DNA of 64,000 nucleotides. Origin: Actinomadura sp. BRA 177. Lineage in GTDB: Bacteria; Actinomycetota; Actinomycetes; Streptosporangiales; Streptosporangiaceae. Both the position numbers and the translations under genes were made by a program. The notes beneath the pieces were generated by a model. It searched no databases. It was not told the origin of the DNA and saw only the letters and a program-made list of their open reading frames with translations. The stretch covers positions 1-64,000 of the forward strand of contig NZ_JABXFD010000295.1 in NCBI RefSeq assembly GCF_013372625.1, given 5' to 3'. Below, piece by piece: positions 52,432 through 62,997 of the stretch (position 1 is its first letter; the number at the start of each line of letters is the position of its first letter).

Positions 52432-52487
52432 CGGCTCTGTAGATTGTGGGGCGCCTTTCCCTGTTCGAGACCGTTAGGTGCGCCTTG

Positions 52488-53351
52488 ATGTCTTCCGATG
52501 GTGGTGCGCGCCGGCGCATCTGGGTCGCCGCGGGCGCGGTCAGTGGCATCGTGGTCGCCACGACGGCGGTCGGTGCCGTGGTGCTGAACGGGGACGGGGC
52601 AGATCCGGCTCGGCAGAGTGCCATGGCCGGCCCGGCGGAGGTCACGCTTCCGAATGTGAATTGGAAACTGTCCTGGCGTGACGAGTTCAATGGTCGTGGG
52701 CGACCCTCGAAGAATTGGACGCCGGTGCTCGGTGGCGGCACCAAAGGATGGTCGCACCGGGCGTTGCAGTATTACACGGCCGATAGTGCCGTGCAGGACG
52801 GCAACGGCAATCTGGTCGTGACTGCACGCAAGGCGGGTGCGTCCTCGACGGCACGGTGCTGGTACGGCAAGTGCAAGTACCTCTCCGGGCGCATCCAGAC
52901 GAAGGGCAAGGTCCACCAGGCCTACGGGCGCTTCGCCGTCCGCGCCAAAATCCCGACGGGCAAGGGCATCTGGCCGGCTTTCTGGATGCAGGGCGAGACG
53001 CGGCCCTACGGCGAGATCGACGTCGTGGAGGTCAAGGGGAGCCAGCCGAACCTGGTCCAGGGCTATGCGCACGCGCAGCGGCAAGTGGGCGGCGGGCAGT
53101 TGAAACTGCCGCAGTCGGTGTCGGCCGGGTACCACGTTTTCGGAGTCGACTGGACACCGGACCGCATTGTCTGGTGGGTCGACGGTCAGCCTTACGCGCA
53201 ATTGAAGGCCTACCGCGGCTGGCCGTTCGACAAGCCCTTCTTTCTGATCATCAACGTGCAGGTCGGCGGCAACTGGCCCGGCTCTCCGAACGCCCAGACC
53301 GCATTCCCCGCCCGGCTGGCGGTTGATTGGGTGCGCGTCTACCGAGGCTGA
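52488..53351 (+). CDS. GH16 family glycoside hydrolase
   Basis: About 287 residues: a signal anchor (about residues 8-34), then a GH16 jelly-roll. The catalytic ExDxxE is in GEIDVVEV, with both Glu residues and the Asp in place. WSHRALQYYTAD, SGRIQTKGKVHQAYGRFAVRAKIPTGKGIWPAFWM and FDKPFFLIINVQVGG are family blocks. Likely substrates are beta-1,3- or mixed-linkage glucans in the surroundings. ATG 52488 lacks a clear ribosome binding site. Confidence 0.9.
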   Translation: MSSDGGARRRIWVAAGAVSGIVVATTAVGAVVLNGDGADPARQSAMAGPAEVTLPNVNWKLSWRDEFNGRGRPSKNWTPVLGGGTKGWSHRALQYYTADSAVQDGNGNLVVTARKAGASSTARCWYGKCKYLSGRIQTKGKVHQAYGRFAVRAKIPTGKGIWPAFWMQGETRPYGEIDVVEVKGSQPNLVQGYAHAQRQVGGGQLKLPQSVSAGYHVFGVDWTPDRIVWWVDGQPYAQLKAYRGWPFDKPFFLIINVQVGGNWPGSPNAQTAFPARLAVDWVRVYRG

Positions 53352-53598: not shown

Positions 53599-54144
53599 GT
53601 GACGTCGTCTGTTCTTGGTGACCGGCCGGATTCGACGAGGCCGGATCCGCCGGCCAAGGGGGCCGCTGCGCACAGCGGACGGCGCCGGCCGTACATCGTG
53701 CTGCTGATCGTGTTGCTGGTGGTCACGGGGCTCGCCCAGACGGCTCCGGGCCGGGGTCTTCTGCGGTCGGCGGGGTTCACGGGGCCCACCGGGTCCTACA
53801 GCGAGCTGGCCTTCGGGTCACCGGCGGATCTGCCGCACGAGCTGTTCCCCGGCACCGCGCTGCCGCCGCTGCCGTTCATGGTCCACAACGTCACCGGCGG
53901 CACCCGGACCTACCACTGGACGGTCGAGCTCGACGGCTCCAAAAACGAGCACGGCTCCAAAAGCGAGCACCGGGTGGCCGAAGGGCAGGCCACGCTGCTC
54001 GACCAAGGCAGCATCATGATCACGCCGGAGGGCCGGGTCACCTGTGCCGGCGGCCCGGTGCGGGTGACCGTCCGGCTGGACCGGCAGTACTCCATCGGCT
54101 ACCACGCCACCTGCGCGTCCGGCGGCACGGGCAGGCAGGCATGA
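53599..54144 (+). CDS. membrane-anchored Ig-like protein, unknown
   Basis: A 181-residue protein with a cytoplasmic Pro-rich head, one membrane helix (about residues 31-50) and an outside domain that reads like one beta-sandwich (LPFMVHNVTGGTRTYHWTVELDG, GSIMITPEGRVTCAGGPVRVTVRLD, YSIGYHATCA) with two Cys. It resembles the soluble part of DUF1616 proteins that accompany polysaccharide genes. GTG 53599 heads the glycan operon and its stop overlaps the next start. Confidence 0.6.
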   Translation: MTSSVLGDRPDSTRPDPPAKGAAAHSGRRRPYIVLLIVLLVVTGLAQTAPGRGLLRSAGFTGPTGSYSELAFGSPADLPHELFPGTALPPLPFMVHNVTGGTRTYHWTVELDGSKNEHGSKSEHRVAEGQATLLDQGSIMITPEGRVTCAGGPVRVTVRLDRQYSIGYHATCASGGTGRQA

Positions 54145-55283
54145 GCGGCCGTCCCGTGGTGGCCCTGGTCACCGACACGGTGCACCCGTACAGCTTCGGC
54201 GGCCGGGAGATCCGCTACCACGAGCTGTCGCGGCAGCCGGCGCTGGACGCCGAGGTGCACATCTACACGATGCACTGGTGGGACGGTCCGCGCGTGGTCG
54301 GCGACGGGCCGGTGACGCTGCACGCCATCATGCGGAACCGGCCGCTGTACCGGGGGCGCCGGCGCTCGTTCCGGCAGGCGATCCGGTTCGCGCTGGCCTG
54401 CCTGGTGCTGCTGCGCGGCCGGTTCGACGTGCTGATGGTCGATCACATCCCGCAGTTCCAGCTATTCACGCTGCGGCTGGTGGCCACGCTGCGCGGCAAG
54501 CCGCTCATCGTCACCTGGCACGAGGTGTGGGGCCCGGAGTACTGGCACGACTACCTGGGCAGGGGCGGGCGGCTGGCCTGGTGGGTGGAGCGGTGGTCGA
54601 TGCGGATGCCCGACCACATTATCGCGGCCTCCCCGCAGACGGCCGAACGGCTGGCGCCGTATCTGGACGGCGGCACGTCCGTCCTGGTGGCGCCGAACGG
54701 GATCGACCTGACCGCGGTGCGCGGCGCCGCGCCGCACCCCTCGTCCACCGACCTCGTCGTCGTGAGCAGGCTGATGGTGCACAAGCGCCTGGACATGCTG
54801 CTGGACGCGGTGGCGCTGCTGCACGCCGCCGGTCAGCGCGTGACGTGCCGGATCATCGGTACCGGGCCGGAACGCGCGGCGCTGCACCGGCAGGCCGAAC
54901 GGCTGGGCATCGCGGACGCGATCGACTTCCGGCACGACGTGCGCGAGCAGAAGGACCTGTACTCGCTGGTCAAGGCCGGTCGCGTGTTCGCCTTCCCGTC
55001 CGAGCGGGAGGGCTTCGGGATCGCGGTGCTGGAGGCGCTGGCCTGCGGGGTGCCGGTGGTGACGACGTCCGCGCCGGACAATCTGGCGCGGCATCTGGTG
55101 ACCCGCTCCCAGCGCGGGCTGGTCTGCGATCACGACGCGGACGCGCTGGCCATGGCGATCGCCACCGCGCTCGCGGCGCAGGACGACCTGGACGGCCAGG
55201 ATCCCTGGCTCGGCGATCCGTGGGTCGGGGACTATTCGTGGGACGCGATCGCGGCGCAGATCTCCCGGCGGTTCTGGCCATGA
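54141..55283 (+). CDS. GT4 family glycosyltransferase
   Basis: A 380-residue GT-B enzyme using an activated sugar. The N-domain begins VVALVTDTVHPYSFGGREIRYHEL with the glycine-rich acceptor loop. The C-domain has VVVSRLMVHKRLDMLLDAV and the donor-site PSEREGFGIAVLEALACGVPVV with its E-x7-E. No membrane helix is seen. It overlaps both neighbours, showing tight coupling in the operon. Confidence 0.9.
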   Translation: MSGRPVVALVTDTVHPYSFGGREIRYHELSRQPALDAEVHIYTMHWWDGPRVVGDGPVTLHAIMRNRPLYRGRRRSFRQAIRFALACLVLLRGRFDVLMVDHIPQFQLFTLRLVATLRGKPLIVTWHEVWGPEYWHDYLGRGGRLAWWVERWSMRMPDHIIAASPQTAERLAPYLDGGTSVLVAPNGIDLTAVRGAAPHPSSTDLVVVSRLMVHKRLDMLLDAVALLHAAGQRVTCRIIGTGPERAALHRQAERLGIADAIDFRHDVREQKDLYSLVKAGRVFAFPSEREGFGIAVLEALACGVPVVTTSAPDNLARHLVTRSQRGLVCDHDADALAMAIATALAAQDDLDGQDPWLGDPWVGDYSWDAIAAQISRRFWP

Positions 55284-56428
55284 GAATCCTGTTCGCCAGT
55301 CCGTATCCGCCGGCGCGGGACGGCATCGGCACCTACACGCAGATACTGGGCGGGGCGTTGCGTGCGGCGGGGCACGAGGTCGCGGTCGTGGCGGTGCGCG
55401 CCGACCAGGGCGCGGGACGCGAGGTCATCGGCGCGCTCGGCCCCTGGGGCGCGACGGATCGGCTGCGGTCGGCGGTCGCGGATTTCGACCCCGATCTGGT
55501 CCACGTGCAGTTCGCCGTTCCGGCGTTCGGCGCGCGCACACCGGCGCTCGTGCGCTGGCTGGCGGAGCTGGCCCGCATCCCGGTGCCGATCGTCACCACG
55601 CTGCACGAGCCGTCCCGCGACACGGCGCTGCTGCACGGCCCCGGACGCGCGCTGTACCGGCGCATCGCCCGCCTCAGCGACCACCTCATCGTCCACACCA
55701 AGGGCGCGCTGGACACGCTCACCGGGCCGCTTGCGGTGAGCCACGCCGAGGTGATCCCGCATTTCTCCACCCCGCCGCCGGAGCCGGTCAGCACCGCGGA
55801 CGAGCTACGAGAGCGGTTCGGCCTCGGCGCGGCCCGGCTTCTGCTGGCCTTCGGATACATCCACGTGGACAAGGGGCTGAACGACCTGGTGCAAGCGTTG
55901 GTGCTGATGCACCGCCGTGACTCCAGGACGCTGCGGGACGTCCGGCTCGTGGTGGCCGGCGCCGTGCGTCCCCGGAGCGGGCCGTTCCGTGTGTTCGAAG
56001 CGAGGGACCGGCTGCATCTGGCGCTGGTCCGGCGGTCGGCGAAGCGCGGCGGTGTGGCCGACCGGCTGGTCTTCACCGGGTTCGTCCCCGGCGACGACAT
56101 CGCCGCCTGGTTCGACGCGGCCGAGACCGTCGTGCTCCCCTACCGCAAGGCCGAGCAGAGCGGCGTCGCCAACCTGGCAAGGGCGTACGGCGTGCCGGTC
56201 ATCGCGACGACCGCGGGCGGGCTCGGCGAACTGTTCGCCGGATCGCCGGGCACAGTGTCGCCGCGCTCCCCTGAGCGGCTGGCGGAAACTCTGGCCGCCT
56301 TTCTCGCCACGGAGCCCGGCATCACCGTCCCGCAAGGGCCTCAGGACGCGGAACTCGGCACGGTCGCCGCCGCGACCACGGCCGTCTACCGCACAGCCGT
56401 CGCGGGCCCGAGGGGAAGGTCCCTATGA
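55280..56428 (+). CDS. GT4 family glycosyltransferase
   Basis: A 382-residue GT-B enzyme. It starts ILFASPYPPARDGIGTYTQILGGALRAAGHEV, has VTTLHEPSRDTALLHG in the N-domain, and ends in LPYRKAEQSGVANLARAYGVPVIATTAGGLGEL, where the usual E-x7-E donor motif is EQSGVANLA-like and only partly conserved. It is coupled to the GT4 gene before and the GT2 gene after it. Confidence 0.88.
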   Translation: MRILFASPYPPARDGIGTYTQILGGALRAAGHEVAVVAVRADQGAGREVIGALGPWGATDRLRSAVADFDPDLVHVQFAVPAFGARTPALVRWLAELARIPVPIVTTLHEPSRDTALLHGPGRALYRRIARLSDHLIVHTKGALDTLTGPLAVSHAEVIPHFSTPPPEPVSTADELRERFGLGAARLLLAFGYIHVDKGLNDLVQALVLMHRRDSRTLRDVRLVVAGAVRPRSGPFRVFEARDRLHLALVRRSAKRGGVADRLVFTGFVPGDDIAAWFDAAETVVLPYRKAEQSGVANLARAYGVPVIATTAGGLGELFAGSPGTVSPRSPERLAETLAAFLATEPGITVPQGPQDAELGTVAAATTAVYRTAVAGPRGRSL

Positions 56429-57456
56429 GCGTCATCCTCACCGTGGTCATCTGCTCACTCAACGGCGCCGGCCGCATCGGCCAAGCCCTGGACGCCCTGG
56501 ACGCGCAGACCATCCGCGACGATCTGGAGATCCTGGTCGTCGACGACGGCTCCACCGACGGCACCGGCGACGTGGCGCGCAAACGCGGCCTCACCGTCAT
56601 CTGGCACGAGCCCAACCGGGGATTGTCGGCCGCCCGCAACACGGGCATGCGCGCCGCGACCGCACCGATCATGGCGTTCATCGACGACGACTGCCGGCCC
56701 GTCCCGCAATGGGCGGAGCTGCTGGTGGCGGGCTACGGAGACGACGGGACGGGAAGGGACGTCACCGGAGTCGGCGGACCCGTGGTGCCCGTCACCGGGT
56801 CAGGCTTCATGGCCCGCTACGTCGAGCGCAACAACCGGCACGAACCTCTCGAACTGGAGCTGACCACCAGCCAGGCGCTGCCCTACCGCTTCCTGCTGTA
56901 CCTGCGGAACCAGTGGTCGTCCCGGCCGCCCAAACCGCGCCGCGACGTCTACTCCTTCACCGGCGGCAACATGTCGTTCCGGCGGGACGCCCTGCTGGAG
57001 GTGGGCGGATTCGACGAGCGGTTCCGGTTCGGGTCGGAAGAAGAAGACCTGTCGCGGCGACTGCGGCGGGCAGGCCGCGACCGGCTGGTGTTCCTGCCCG
57101 AGGCGTGCCTGTCGCACCGTTTCGAACCGACGCTGCGCAGCGTCCTGCGCCGCAACGTCGCCTACGGCCGCGGCAACGCGTTGCAGTACCGCAAATGGCC
57201 GGGCGTTCGTCCGACCCTGTTCCCCTGGCCGGTGCTCGTCGCGATGCTGCTGGCCGCCTCGATCTGGTTCTGGCCGCTCGCGGTGGCCGCAGCCGTGTCG
57301 CCGTTGCTGCTCTACCCCGGCGGCCTCAAGAACGGTGTGCTGCGAAGGACACCTGAAGCATTCCTCGACCCCTACCTCCAGCTCACGCAAGAAGCGTGCG
57401 AGAACGTCGGCTTCGTCCGCGGAGCCTGGACGTTCCGCAGGCTGGAGCGCGCGTGA
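56425..57456 (+). CDS. GT2 family glycosyltransferase with membrane helices
   Basis: A 343-residue GT-A enzyme. VVICSLNGAGRIGQALDALDAQ starts the fold, VVDDGSTDGTGD binds UDP or another nucleotide, FIDDDCRPVP holds the DxD metal site, and GSEEEDLSRRLRRAG the catalytic acid. Hydrophobic segments near residues 268-300 tether it to the membrane. Start and stop overlap the neighbouring genes. Confidence 0.9.
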   Translation: MSVILTVVICSLNGAGRIGQALDALDAQTIRDDLEILVVDDGSTDGTGDVARKRGLTVIWHEPNRGLSAARNTGMRAATAPIMAFIDDDCRPVPQWAELLVAGYGDDGTGRDVTGVGGPVVPVTGSGFMARYVERNNRHEPLELELTTSQALPYRFLLYLRNQWSSRPPKPRRDVYSFTGGNMSFRRDALLEVGGFDERFRFGSEEEDLSRRLRRAGRDRLVFLPEACLSHRFEPTLRSVLRRNVAYGRGNALQYRKWPGVRPTLFPWPVLVAMLLAASIWFWPLAVAAAVSPLLLYPGGLKNGVLRRTPEAFLDPYLQLTQEACENVGFVRGAWTFRRLERA

Positions 57457-59762
57457 TCAATGCACGTCCCCCGACGAACACGCGGGGATCACGGTCCACA
57501 CCGGGCACCGTGGAATGGCTCATCTTCCGCCGGGTGGTGTACTACGGGGCCGCGCTGACCCTGATGACGCTGCTGTCGCTGCTGCAGGACCTGTGGATGG
57601 CGCAACTCGCGCTCATCCCCATGCTGCTGACCGTCCCCGGGCTGCTGCTGCTCAACGCGCTGCGCGTGCCCGGGACGGCAGTTGCGCTGTTCCCGCTCTA
57701 CGTCCCGGCGTGCTCGCTGGTGGTGCTGATGGGGTCCGGCCTGGCGGTCAACCTCGGCGGGGCGGCGCTCGGGATGGAGCATCCGCTGCGTCCCGTCCCG
57801 CTGCTGATCGGCCTGCAGCTGTGCTGCCTGCTGATGCTGCTGGCCGGCACGACCGCGCCGCTGAGCACGGCCATTCCCCGTCCCGCGCTGCCGTCCGTCC
57901 GGTGGCTGACGCTGTCGATGCTGCTGCCGCTGATGGCGGCCGCCGGCGCGCTGCGGCTGAACCACGGGCACGGCGAGGTGCTGGCCATCGCGGCGCTGGT
58001 CGCCTGCGGGGCGGTGCTCGCCGGCACCGCGCTGACGGCCAACCGGCTGGACGTCGGACGCGTCTCGGTGCTGCTGTTCGCGGTGTCGCTGGCGATGATG
58101 TGGGCCTACTCGCTGCGCAGCGACCTCGTCTACGGGTTCGACATCTCCACCGAGTACGCGGTCGCCACCGCGACCATCCGGGACGGCGTGTGGGAGATGC
58201 ACCCGCATCCGGACGCCTACGGCGCGATGCTGAGCATCACCGTCCTGCCCGCGCAGCTGCACGAGCTGACCGGCATCAGCCTCGTGGTGATCCTCAAGCT
58301 GGCCTACCCAGCGGCGTTCGCGATGTTCGTGGTGGGGATCTACAACATCGCCGAACGCTTCCTGCCGCGCCGCTGGGCCACCCTCGCCGCCGGCTACGTG
58401 CTGGTGCAGGGCGGGGTGTCCCAGCAGCTTCCGGCGCTCGCCCGGCAGGAGATCGCGCTGCTGCTGTTCCTCGCGCTGTGCGCGGCGCTGCTGGAGATCG
58501 GGATGCCCCGGCCGCCGCGCCTGACGCTGGTGGTCCTGTTCGGCCCCGCCCTGGTGGTGTCGCACTACTCCACCGCCTACTTCGCGCTGCTGATGCTGGG
58601 CGGCGCCGTCTGCGTGCAGATCCTGCTCGGCGTCACCCGGCGCACCGCCGCAGTCCGCTGGACGGTCGCCGCCGCGCTGCTCACCAGCGTCGCCGGTGCC
58701 GTGCTCTGGTACGGGCCGATCACCCAGTCGGCGTCCAACATGGGGCAGCTGCGCACCGCGCTCAGCTCGGACGGGCTGCAGCTGCTGCCGCGCGGCCAGG
58801 GCAAGGGCCTGATCGCCGCCTACCTGTCCGGCGGAGAAGGCGGCACCATGCCCACCTCCGAGTACGCGGAGAAGGTCCGCGCCGCCTACGCCGACCGGTC
58901 CTACATCCGGCCGCCGGGCGATGCCGGCGATCCCCGCTACGAACTGCGCGACAACGGCCTACCCGAACGCGAACCGCGTGTTCCGCTCGTCGGGCCGATG
59001 CTGAACCTGGCGGTCCTGGCGTTCGCCCAGCTGGGCAACCTGCTCGCCGTGGCCGCCGCGGCGCTGATGGTGTTCCAGCGGCGGTCCCCCGGGCTGACCC
59101 GGCAGGTCGGGCTGCTGGCCCTGCCCGCGCTGGGCGCGCTGGTCCTGTTCCGCCTGTCCGGCACGCTCGCCACGGTCTACAACCAAGGCCGGGCCCAGAT
59201 CCAGGCACTCACCCTGGTGTCGGTGGCGCTGTTCTGGATGCTGCACCAGATCGCGCCGCGACTGCGCAGGCACCTCCCCCGGACGTCCGGACGGCGACTC
59301 GACCTGCTCGTGTGGGCTGCCGTCGGCGGCGCCGTGCTCACGATCTTCGTCAAGTCCAGCGACCTCTCCACGGTCGCGCTCGGCGGTACCCCCAGCGCTC
59401 ATCTGGCCGACCGCGGCGAGGACTACGAGCGCTTCTACGAGCACCGCGCCGAGCTCGCGTCCGCCGCCTGGCTCGGCTACCAGGTCGCCGGAAACCGGGA
59501 CCTGGTCTACTCCGACCGGTACGGCCAGATCCGGCTGTTCACCCAGTTGGGCGCGGGCCGCCCCGGCATGATCACCGACCTCGCCCCGGCGGCGCTGAAC
59601 CACGAGGCGTGGATCTACGCCACCCGCGTCAACGTCGTCCAAGGCCGGGCGCGCTCCTCCATCGACGGCCGCATGGCCACCTACGCCTTCCCCACCGACT
59701 TCATCAGGAAGAACTACGACCTGGTGTACACGAACGGAGAGTCCGAGGTGTACCACCGATGA
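57453..59762 (+). CDS. large polytopic GT-C-like membrane protein
   Basis: A 769-residue protein (GTG 57453 overlapping the previous stop) with about 14 membrane segments in the first 590 residues and a soluble C-terminal part. The loop SDLVYGFDISTEYAVATATIRDGVW has acidic residues where GT-C transferases, which use polyprenol-linked sugars, keep their catalytic Asp/Glu. The outside loop around TSEYAEKVRAAY and the tail LNHEAWIYATRVNVVQG lack a known family. It resembles DUF2206-type proteins. It may be the polymerase or ligase of the glycan. Confidence 0.7.
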   Translation: MINARPPTNTRGSRSTPGTVEWLIFRRVVYYGAALTLMTLLSLLQDLWMAQLALIPMLLTVPGLLLLNALRVPGTAVALFPLYVPACSLVVLMGSGLAVNLGGAALGMEHPLRPVPLLIGLQLCCLLMLLAGTTAPLSTAIPRPALPSVRWLTLSMLLPLMAAAGALRLNHGHGEVLAIAALVACGAVLAGTALTANRLDVGRVSVLLFAVSLAMMWAYSLRSDLVYGFDISTEYAVATATIRDGVWEMHPHPDAYGAMLSITVLPAQLHELTGISLVVILKLAYPAAFAMFVVGIYNIAERFLPRRWATLAAGYVLVQGGVSQQLPALARQEIALLLFLALCAALLEIGMPRPPRLTLVVLFGPALVVSHYSTAYFALLMLGGAVCVQILLGVTRRTAAVRWTVAAALLTSVAGAVLWYGPITQSASNMGQLRTALSSDGLQLLPRGQGKGLIAAYLSGGEGGTMPTSEYAEKVRAAYADRSYIRPPGDAGDPRYELRDNGLPEREPRVPLVGPMLNLAVLAFAQLGNLLAVAAAALMVFQRRSPGLTRQVGLLALPALGALVLFRLSGTLATVYNQGRAQIQALTLVSVALFWMLHQIAPRLRRHLPRTSGRRLDLLVWAAVGGAVLTIFVKSSDLSTVALGGTPSAHLADRGEDYERFYEHRAELASAAWLGYQVAGNRDLVYSDRYGQIRLFTQLGAGRPGMITDLAPAALNHEAWIYATRVNVVQGRARSSIDGRMATYAFPTDFIRKNYDLVYTNGESEVYHR

Positions 59763-60685
59763 TCTCGATCGTCGTCATCAGCAAGGACGAGCCCGAACTC
59801 GACGCCACCCTCACCGCGGTGCCCGCCATGCACGCCGGGGAGCCGGTGGAGGTCCTGGTGGTGGACGCGTCCGGCGGCCACCTCGACCACCTGGCCGCCG
59901 CCCACCCCCGGGTGCGCTGGCAGGCGTTCGAGCCGCCGCCCGGCGTGCGCGTGTCCATTCCGCACCAGCGCAACGCCGGCGTCCGGGCCGCGTCGGGCGA
60001 TGTCGTGGTGTTCACCGACGCCGGCTGCCGCCCGGAGCCGGGCTGGCTGCCCGCGCTGCTGGCACCCCTGCGCAAGGAGGACGAGGACATCGTGGCGGGT
60101 GTCGCCACCGGTCCCCGAGACCGTCCCGGGCTCTACGACCGGGACGCGGTGCGGCCCGCGATGTACTTGGACGAATGCCCGACCATCAACCTGGCCTTCC
60201 GGCGCAGCCTGTTCGATGCCGTCGACGGGTTCGACGAAGCCTTCGAATACGGCTCGGACGTGGACTTCTCCTGGCGCGTCCTCGACGCCGGATACCGGAT
60301 CCGCAGCGCACCGGACGCCGTCGTCGTGCACGACTGGGGCGGCCGGCGCCGGCAGGTCCGCCGGTCCTATGCCTATGGGAAGGCACGGGCGCGTCTCTAC
60401 CTCAAGCACCGTTCCCGGTTGCCGCGTCTGCCGACCACCGAACCGATGGTCGTCGCCTACCCCATCTACCTTCTCGGCTTGCCCGTGGCGCTGCTGGCGT
60501 CGGTGGCGGCGGGCGTTTCGACGGCCGTTCCGCAGTGGACGATCCTCGTCCTGCCCGGCTATCTCGCGTTGCTGGCCGTACCCGCCTGGCGCAACCGGCG
60601 CAACGGCAGCGCACGAGTGGTCCTGGACCACCTCGTCTACGGGGCCGGTGTGCTCGCCGAGCTGACCCGGCGGCGTCGCCGATGA
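59759..60685 (+). CDS. GT2 family glycosyltransferase
   Basis: A 308-residue GT-A enzyme. It starts SIVVISKDEPELDATLTAV, binds donor near VLVVDASGG, has the metal site in FTDAGCRPEPGW (DxG in place of DxD), and the acid in FDEAFEYGSDVDFSWRVLDAGY. Two hydrophobic segments near residues 245-285 follow. It overlaps both neighbouring genes. Confidence 0.88.
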   Translation: MISIVVISKDEPELDATLTAVPAMHAGEPVEVLVVDASGGHLDHLAAAHPRVRWQAFEPPPGVRVSIPHQRNAGVRAASGDVVVFTDAGCRPEPGWLPALLAPLRKEDEDIVAGVATGPRDRPGLYDRDAVRPAMYLDECPTINLAFRRSLFDAVDGFDEAFEYGSDVDFSWRVLDAGYRIRSAPDAVVVHDWGGRRRQVRRSYAYGKARARLYLKHRSRLPRLPTTEPMVVAYPIYLLGLPVALLASVAAGVSTAVPQWTILVLPGYLALLAVPAWRNRRNGSARVVLDHLVYGAGVLAELTRRRRR

Positions 60686-62997
60686 AGATCCTCGTCATCC
60701 CCCGGGACGGCAACCCCTACCAGGAACTGCTCTACGGCCGACTCCGGCGGCACGGGGCGCGCGTCCGCTACGCCGCGCAGCTGACTCCCTCGCACACGCT
60801 GAACCTGCTGCTGCTCCCGCTGGAGCTGACTGCGGCACGGCTCACCGGCACCCGGCTGGTCCATCTGCACTGGGTGTTCGGCTTCGTCCTGCCCGGCGGG
60901 CGGCGCGCCCGGCGCGCCGCCCAGTGCTGGTTCGCCCTGGTCATCGCGGTCATCCGGCTGCTGGGCATGCGGCTGGTGTGGACGGCGCACAACGTCCTGC
61001 CGCACGAACCGGTGTTCGCCGACGACCGGGCCGCGCGGCGGCGCCTGGTGCGCGCCAGCGACCTCGTCATCGCCCACTCCCTGCCCGCGCTGGACGGGCT
61101 CGCCGCCATCGGCGCTAACCCGCGCCGCGTCGCCGTCATCCCGCACGGCCCGTTTCCCGCACCGCCGCTGCCGCCGCCCGGGGCTCACGGCCGATTCCTC
61201 TTCCTCGGCATGATCGCCGAGTACAAGGGAGTGGAGGACCTGCTCGCCGCGTTCGCCGCCCTGCCGCCGCACGTCCGCGCCACCCTGACGGTGGCCGGCG
61301 CCTGCCCCGACCCGGACCTCGCCGCCCGGCTGCGCGTCCTCGCCGGCCAGGCCGGCGACCGGGTCACCCTGCGGCTGGAGCGGATACCGGACGAGGAACT
61401 GGCCGGCCTGTACGCCGCCGCCGACGTCGTCGCCCTGCCGTTCCGGCGCGTCACCACCAGCGGCAGCGCCCTGCTCGCCCTCGGTCACGGACGGCCGCTG
61501 CTCATCCCCGACGATCCCGCGCTGGGCGGGCTGCCCGCCGCCGCCGTCCACCGCTACGACGGCGGCGTCCCGGCGCTGACCTCCGCGATCACCGAACTGG
61601 CCGGGGCCGGCGCGGCCGCACTGCACGCGATGTCGGCCGCCGCCCTCGACCACGTCCGCGCCGACAGCTGGGAGAAGATCGGCGAGGCGACCTTCGAGGA
61701 GCTGGCGAACCTGCGACCCCCGCGCCGCTTCCTGCCGGCGCCGCTGCGCGGCCCGGTGCAGCGCATCGCCACCGACGCCCTCTACCGCGGTTCGGCCCTG
61801 CTGCTGGCCAACACCGTCGGGCTGGCCGGCCTCGGCTTCCTGTTCTGGGCGCTGGCCGCCCGTAGCTACCCCGCGTCGGCCGTCGGCTGGCTCGCCGGTG
61901 TCACCGCAGGTGTCAACCTGCTCGCCACGGTCGCCTCCCTCGGCCTGCCCAACACCATGATCCGCCACCTGTCGGCGGCCGCCGACCCGCGCGCCCTGGC
62001 CCGCGCGGCGGTCACGGCCGTCACCGTCATCGGCGGCACCCTGGCGCTGGCGTGCCTGGTCCTGCTCACCCCGCTGCTGCCCGGCGGCGGGCCCGACCTC
62101 GGCGGAGACGTCCGCTCGATCCTGCTGGTGATCCTCCTGGTGGTCAGCACCGCCGCGGGCGGAACGCTGGACGCCGGCCTCATCGCCACGCGCGCCACCG
62201 GCGCGCTGCTGGCCAAGAACCTGGCGGGCGGCACCGCCAAGGTCGCCGCGCTCCTCGCCCTCACCCCGTTCGGACTGCCGGGCCTGATCGTCGCCTACGG
62301 CACCGGGACCGTGCTGGCCACCTCCCTCGGCGGGGCCGTCCTCCTGCGCCGGCTGCCCCGCGGCCCACGGCGCCGCAACCCGTTCCGCACCCTGCGCCGG
62401 CACGTGTCGTTCTCCAGCGGAAGCTACCTCGGCACCGTGTTCGGGATCCTGCCCAGCACGGTCGTCCCGCTGCAGGTGCTCACCCTCGCCGGCAGCAGGC
62501 AGACCGCCTGGTTCTCCGTCGCCTTCCAGCTCGCCGCCTTCCTCAACTTCATTCCGTCCACCGCCGCACAGGTCACCTTCGCCGAGGCCCAGCGCGCCGC
62601 CCTGCGCACGCAACTCCGCAAAGCCGTCAAGGCCGTTTACGCCCTGCTGCTTCCGGCGACGCTGCTGATGGTGCTCGCCGCCCCGCTCCTGCTCAGGATG
62701 TTCGGTCCCGAATACGCGGAGTCGGCGACGACCTGCCTGCGCCTCATCGCGGCCGCCACCGTGCTCTCGGCGGGCGTGTATCTCGTGGACGCCGCCCTCA
62801 TCGCCCGCGACCGCACCGGCTCCTACATCCTCATGAACGGCGTCAACGCCGCCCTCGTCCTCACCTGCTGCGCGCTGGCCCTCCCGCACGGCCTCACCGC
62901 CGGAGTCCTCGGCTGGATCGCCGCCCAGGGCCTCTCCCTCCTCTTCGGCGCCCTTCTCATCGCCGTCAACTTCGGCCTGCGCTCCCCGGCGCGTTGA
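60682..62997 (+). CDS. fusion of a glycosyltransferase and a Wzx-like flippase
   Basis: A single 771-residue reading frame. Residues 1 to about 355 are a GT-B transferase: MKILVIPRDGNPYQELLYGRL, HLHWVFGF, VWTAHNVLPHEP, RFLFLGMIAEYKGVEDLLAAF and VVALPFRRVTTSGSALLALGHGRPLLIP. Residues about 370-771 carry some twelve membrane helices of the polysaccharide-exporter (MATE/Wzx) type, with LPNTMIRHLSAA, SFSSGSYLGTVFGILPSTVVPL and FGPEYAESATTCLRLIAAA. The fusion would hand the finished lipid-linked sugar straight to the flippase. It is the last gene of the operon. Confidence 0.85.
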   Translation: MKILVIPRDGNPYQELLYGRLRRHGARVRYAAQLTPSHTLNLLLLPLELTAARLTGTRLVHLHWVFGFVLPGGRRARRAAQCWFALVIAVIRLLGMRLVWTAHNVLPHEPVFADDRAARRRLVRASDLVIAHSLPALDGLAAIGANPRRVAVIPHGPFPAPPLPPPGAHGRFLFLGMIAEYKGVEDLLAAFAALPPHVRATLTVAGACPDPDLAARLRVLAGQAGDRVTLRLERIPDEELAGLYAAADVVALPFRRVTTSGSALLALGHGRPLLIPDDPALGGLPAAAVHRYDGGVPALTSAITELAGAGAAALHAMSAAALDHVRADSWEKIGEATFEELANLRPPRRFLPAPLRGPVQRIATDALYRGSALLLANTVGLAGLGFLFWALAARSYPASAVGWLAGVTAGVNLLATVASLGLPNTMIRHLSAAADPRALARAAVTAVTVIGGTLALACLVLLTPLLPGGGPDLGGDVRSILLVILLVVSTAAGGTLDAGLIATRATGALLAKNLAGGTAKVAALLALTPFGLPGLIVAYGTGTVLATSLGGAVLLRRLPRGPRRRNPFRTLRRHVSFSSGSYLGTVFGILPSTVVPLQVLTLAGSRQTAWFSVAFQLAAFLNFIPSTAAQVTFAEAQRAALRTQLRKAVKAVYALLLPATLLMVLAAPLLLRMFGPEYAESATTCLRLIAAATVLSAGVYLVDAALIARDRTGSYILMNGVNAALVLTCCALALPHGLTAGVLGWIAAQGLSLLFGALLIAVNFGLRSPAR

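Follow-up and report, generated by a model that had tools for sequence, protein, structure and literature searches.

Wzx-type flippases and glycosyltransferases of family GT4 are the closest described counterparts of the protein analyzed here. The EX7E motif is common in GT4 enzymes, though not universal. The export of mainly finished lipid-linked sugars is usually put down to recognition by the flippase. Some flippases of the MOP superfamily discriminate terminal sugars (PMC6436433), TacF monitors substrate completion (PMC13385700), and WzxE has functional arginine pairs in its lumen (PMC11706664). A text search of the literature, which left most subscription journals outside, returned no description of a glycosyltransferase-flippase fusion; this is weak evidence for novelty. 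Both parts of the fusion reported below belong to known families. The join itself is genuine and represents an optional rearrangement within a well-known route of polysaccharide export.

The analyzed window comprises 64,000 nucleotides from the soil actinomycete Actinomadura sp. BRA 177. Within it, the fused gene is the last of a seven-gene operon with short overlaps between neighboring genes (Table 1). The original prediction of a single uninterrupted frame of 771 residues encoding a glycosyltransferase and a flippase was borne out: the frame contains no internal stop codon and is conserved intact in 14 genomes. The domain identities held as well, since GT4 Pfam domains and Polysacc_synt were found and both halves are complete. 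PF13692 was detected at residues 171-277 (37.9 bits), PF13439 at residues 81-156 (29.9 bits) and PF00534 at residues 171-255. Polysacc_synt (PF01943) covered residues 369-633 with 28.9 bits, barely above its curated cut-off of 28.2. All NCBIfam matches of the fused protein were far below their cut-offs. The domain layout agreed with the predicted boundaries of 1-355 and 370-771, but the exact ends did not, as the glycosyltransferase ends near residue 345 and the flippase starts near residue 366.

Table 1. Features of the fused gene, its operon and the gene pair of a more distant relative (positions refer to the window unless a sequence is named).
Feature	Positions	Strand	Evidence or remark
GH16 glycoside hydrolase, immediately upstream of the operon	52446..53351	+	Pfam PF00722; synteny in relatives
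Small protein, apparently with a single N-terminal membrane helix, without Pfam match	53599..54144	+	Syntenic
GT4 glycosyltransferase	54141..55283	+	Pfam PF00534; synteny
GT4 glycosyltransferase	55280..56428	+	Pfam PF13692, PF13439; synteny
GT2 glycosyltransferase	56425..57456	+	Pfam PF00535; synteny
Large polytopic DUF2206 protein	57396..59762	+	Pfam PF09971; synteny
GT2 glycosyltransferase, overlaps the fused-gene start by 4 bases, conserved neighbor	59759..60685	+	Pfam PF00535; synteny
Whole fused gene	60682..62997	+	ATG at 60682, TGA at 62995-62997; 771 residues
GT-B/GT4 glycosyltransferase half, residues ~1-345	60682..61716	+	Pfam, structural match, invariant motifs
Linker, residues ~346-365	61717..61776	+	Varies among relatives; low confidence in the model, probably flexible
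Wzx/MOP-type flippase half, residues ~366-771, 12 predicted helices	61777..62994	+	Pfam, WzxE match, positive-inside pattern
Hexapeptide acetyltransferase gene, genome G405	L098 10192-10767	-	Between glycosyltransferase and flippase genes

The genome assembly is a draft in 735 contigs, and a sequencing or assembly error, against which the prediction itself had warned, might have joined two separate genes. We found no support for such an error. The same join is present in 14 separate, independent assemblies, near-complete ones among them, which rules out this explanation and leaves it a negligible probability.

In order to characterize the N-terminal half, a predicted structure model was compared with solved structures. 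Residues 1-348 matched the GT4 enzymes MshA, BshA, HepE and PimB'. Both a GT-B fold and GT4 profile matches were obtained for this half. The motifs TAHN, LPH, PHG, YKG and TTSGSA are invariant in fused and split relatives. EX7E was not found at its GT4 region; all fused and split relatives examined contain PFRxxTTSGSAxLAL there. The fused protein thus shares the fold over residues 1-348 and the Pfam GT4 domains with MshA, BshA, HepE and PimB' but differs from them by TTSGSA instead of EX7E and by the attached membrane transporter. Because the invariant TTSGSA stands in place of EX7E, the donor and even the activity of this half are uncertain. We therefore call the N-terminal half GT4-like; the replaced motif makes canonical GT4 chemistry less certain but does not weaken the fold assignment.

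The C-terminal half (residues 365-767 of the predicted model) was matched best by WzxE with a Z score of 32.2 and 3.6 Å over 386 residues; MATE proteins came next, and MurJ scored lower. Since MATE proteins and MurJ also match, the fold alone cannot distinguish Wzx from these transporters, although WzxE ranks first. When hydropathy was averaged over 11 fused relatives, the flippase half exhibited eleven peaks, and the count of twelve helices was obtained by splitting residues ~515-560 by eye into helices 5 and 6. Under this twelve-helix reading basic residues favor the cytosolic loops, and by the positive-inside rule both ends lie inside the cell. Consequently, the glycosyltransferase half is expected in the cytosol, on the side of substrate uptake. 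Twelve predicted helices, two cytosolic ends and a WzxE-like fold are the features of a MOP-type transporter. The charged residues R428, R504, R557, E635 and R687 of this half are the same in all 13 relatives compared. With WzxE and the Wzx/PST family of the MOP superfamily the flippase half shares the fold, twelve helices, cytosolic ends and PF01943, likewise a basic C-terminal tail and a location among glycosyltransferase genes. In contrast to these proteins, the fused protein carries an additional N-terminal glycosyltransferase, and its transport activity is a prediction. The weak Pfam score (28.9 versus 28.2 bits) counts against the assignment as a flippase, though the structural match is strong. 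The split flippase of Actinocorallia, described below, scored 30.7 bits to PF01943.

The remaining operon genes encode mainly further glycosyltransferases (Table 1). The DUF2206 protein is possibly a GT-C enzyme or a polymerase; its predicted model had a pLDDT of 35 and was unusable. No initiating phosphoglycosyltransferase is encoded in the seven-gene operon, and three PF02397 matches were located on other contigs of the same genome. The flippase is present, but no Wzy Pfam match was obtained among the seven operon proteins. The GH16 glycanase gene is syntenic in Actinomadura, Nonomuraea and Actinocorallia, and two copies of it surround the operon in the latter two genera.

In our view the protein is best explained as an enzyme tethered to a transporter, two domains of one chain that serve a Wzx-dependent pathway for a surface or extracellular polysaccharide; we assign this a probability of about 0.65. 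The other glycosyltransferases of the operon would build a lipid-linked oligosaccharide, the cytosolic GT4 domain would add a sugar to it, and the fused Wzx-type flippase would carry the resulting lipid-linked molecule to the other side of the membrane. As a flexible tether, the join would fix enzyme and transporter at a ratio of 1:1 and hold them close. It would stand in for the usual two neighboring genes, and the chemistry would not need it. We infer here the substrate, the action of both domains on one molecule, the position of the sugar in the unit and any kinetic benefit. This assignment to a polysaccharide pathway gains from the retention of the fusion beside the operon glycosyltransferases in a conserved order. 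The lack of an initiating phosphoglycosyltransferase and of a recognized Wzy in the operon counts against it.

The structure of the whole fused protein was predicted from a shallow alignment of seven sequences (mean pLDDT 78, pTM 0.49). The model of the joint, which had been proposed as a check, resolved two compact domains but not their relative placement, as indicated by the pTM and by pLDDT values below 50 for residues 347-356 and 358-364. Across 11 fused genes the linker keeps the reading frame and contains no stop codon. Its length and sequence differ among them, as would suit a flexible tether. An internal translation start in the fused gene could additionally yield a free flippase. Some relatives do contain an in-frame GTG or ATG in the linker, close to GGAG-like stretches; however, no codon position is conserved among the 11 fused genes, and two relatives have no start codon at all in the linker stretch examined. 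An internal start was rejected on these grounds and is very improbable.

The fused form occurs in 5 of 65 genomes of Actinomadura, a genus to which A. hibisca and A. macrotermitis belong. The group g74 contributes 9 carriers among 54 genomes; it was taken as Nonomuraea because the 783-residue fused protein of one of its members (G252) has exactly the sequence of a frame of Nonomuraea gerenzanensis. The replicon NZ_LT559118.1 (L106; 11.85 Mb) of N. gerenzanensis is labelled plasmid I and looks like a chromosome. A local profile scan detected both halves within a single frame in each of the 14 carriers. With 14 sampled carriers, few relatives have the fused form, in line with the prediction that separate genes are the norm. 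The gene order of the operon is the same in the Actinomadura and Nonomuraea carriers wherever long flanks were read, and in three carriers with short flanks the two upstream neighbors of the fusion are the same. The fused proteins share 69-76% identity within Actinomadura and ~60% between Actinomadura and Nonomuraea.

Split relatives also exist, but homologues are not always split, the case that the original prediction had named as speaking against it: the two parts are fused in 14 genomes and split in Actinocorallia and in G405. In Actinocorallia sp. API 0066 the halves are encoded by two genes in different frames with a one-base overlap of stop and start codon (TGATG), where the A of the TGA of the first gene begins the ATG of the second. 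This pair (L034/L054) consists of homologous operon partners in the same order, which are 57% and 55% identical to the respective halves of the fused protein, but it comprises two genes instead of one, and the remainder of the operon is rearranged. In the more distant genome G405, from the same class, the operon order is kept, but the glycosyltransferase and flippase genes are separated by one for a hexapeptide acetyltransferase. This acetyltransferase gene suggests that the sugar unit is acylated there. Since the same operon also occurs with separate glycosyltransferase and flippase genes, covalent coupling is no general requirement of the pathway.

In a tree of concatenated operon proteins Actinomadura and Actinocorallia grouped with 98% support, with g74 outside. 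A tree forcing all fused forms into one clade was disfavored (AU p = 0.031, a modest value), and single-gene trees differed in detail from the concatenated tree. A single origin of the fusion without reversal is accordingly disfavored with modest support. Together, the 98% grouping and the AU result make more than one change of configuration probable. On the sequence comparison we favor, with modest support, either one fusion followed by fission or two fusions.

These relatives also bear on two other explanations. In the first, the fusion would be neutral: a stop codon was lost between overlapping genes, leaving two independently working proteins without any benefit. The Actinocorallia layout is only a small frame change away from the fused one, both layouts occur and more than one change of configuration is favored, and the linker is unconserved, all of which would be expected in this case. 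Nevertheless, the join has been kept in 14 of 14 carriers of two genera despite divergence to 69-76% and ~60% identity, and we consider neutrality unlikely. In the second, put forward in the original prediction, coupling would be obligate: the glycosyltransferase would attach the terminal sugar at the entrance of the flippase and hand the finished unit straight over, so that only finished units were exported. The topology puts the enzyme on the membrane side of the flippase entrance, the split genes of Actinocorallia are still adjacent and overlapping, and coupling of completion to export has precedents in flippases (PMC6436433; TacF, PMC13385700). Against it stand the split forms of this operon, one of them with an intervening gene, the variable linker of low model confidence, the domain placement, which the model does not fix, and the lack of anything that identifies the sugar added by this glycosyltransferase. 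Obligate coupling is improbable to a similar degree.

A further possibility, which we hold to be doubtful, is a covalent relay: a glycosyltransferase that acts late would pass its product directly to the flippase it is attached to, and the specificity of export would then arise partly from tethering instead of flippase recognition. Whether tethering matters can be compared cleanly here, as fused and split versions of one pair occur naturally in the same operon. The fusion also points to the glycosyltransferase of the pathway which likely works beside the flippase.

Other long flippase-bearing frames were inspected in a partial survey. Fourteen frames of 619-1010 residues were chosen among the matches listed in a survey of 246 genomes of the phylum, with Pfam searches for two of them and for the frame in L088; by eye none of the fourteen contained a recognizable glycosyltransferase. 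A frame of 1010 residues in L142 (871-3900, minus strand) combines Polysacc_synt at residues 38-308 with Wzy_C at residues 754-905 and may be a Wzx-Wzy fusion. As in the present fusion, a Polysacc_synt flippase is joined to a protein of a polysaccharide pathway, but the partner is a Wzy_C domain in L142 and a glycosyltransferase here. A flippase frame in L144 (1759-4011, minus strand) carries a tail of ~240 residues with a P-loop-like GADGSGKST sequence and without Pfam match. The frame in L088 (1477-4212, plus strand) starts with a flippase-like N-terminal part, which scored below the Pfam cut-off; the C-terminal remainder of the same frame is long and hydrophobic.
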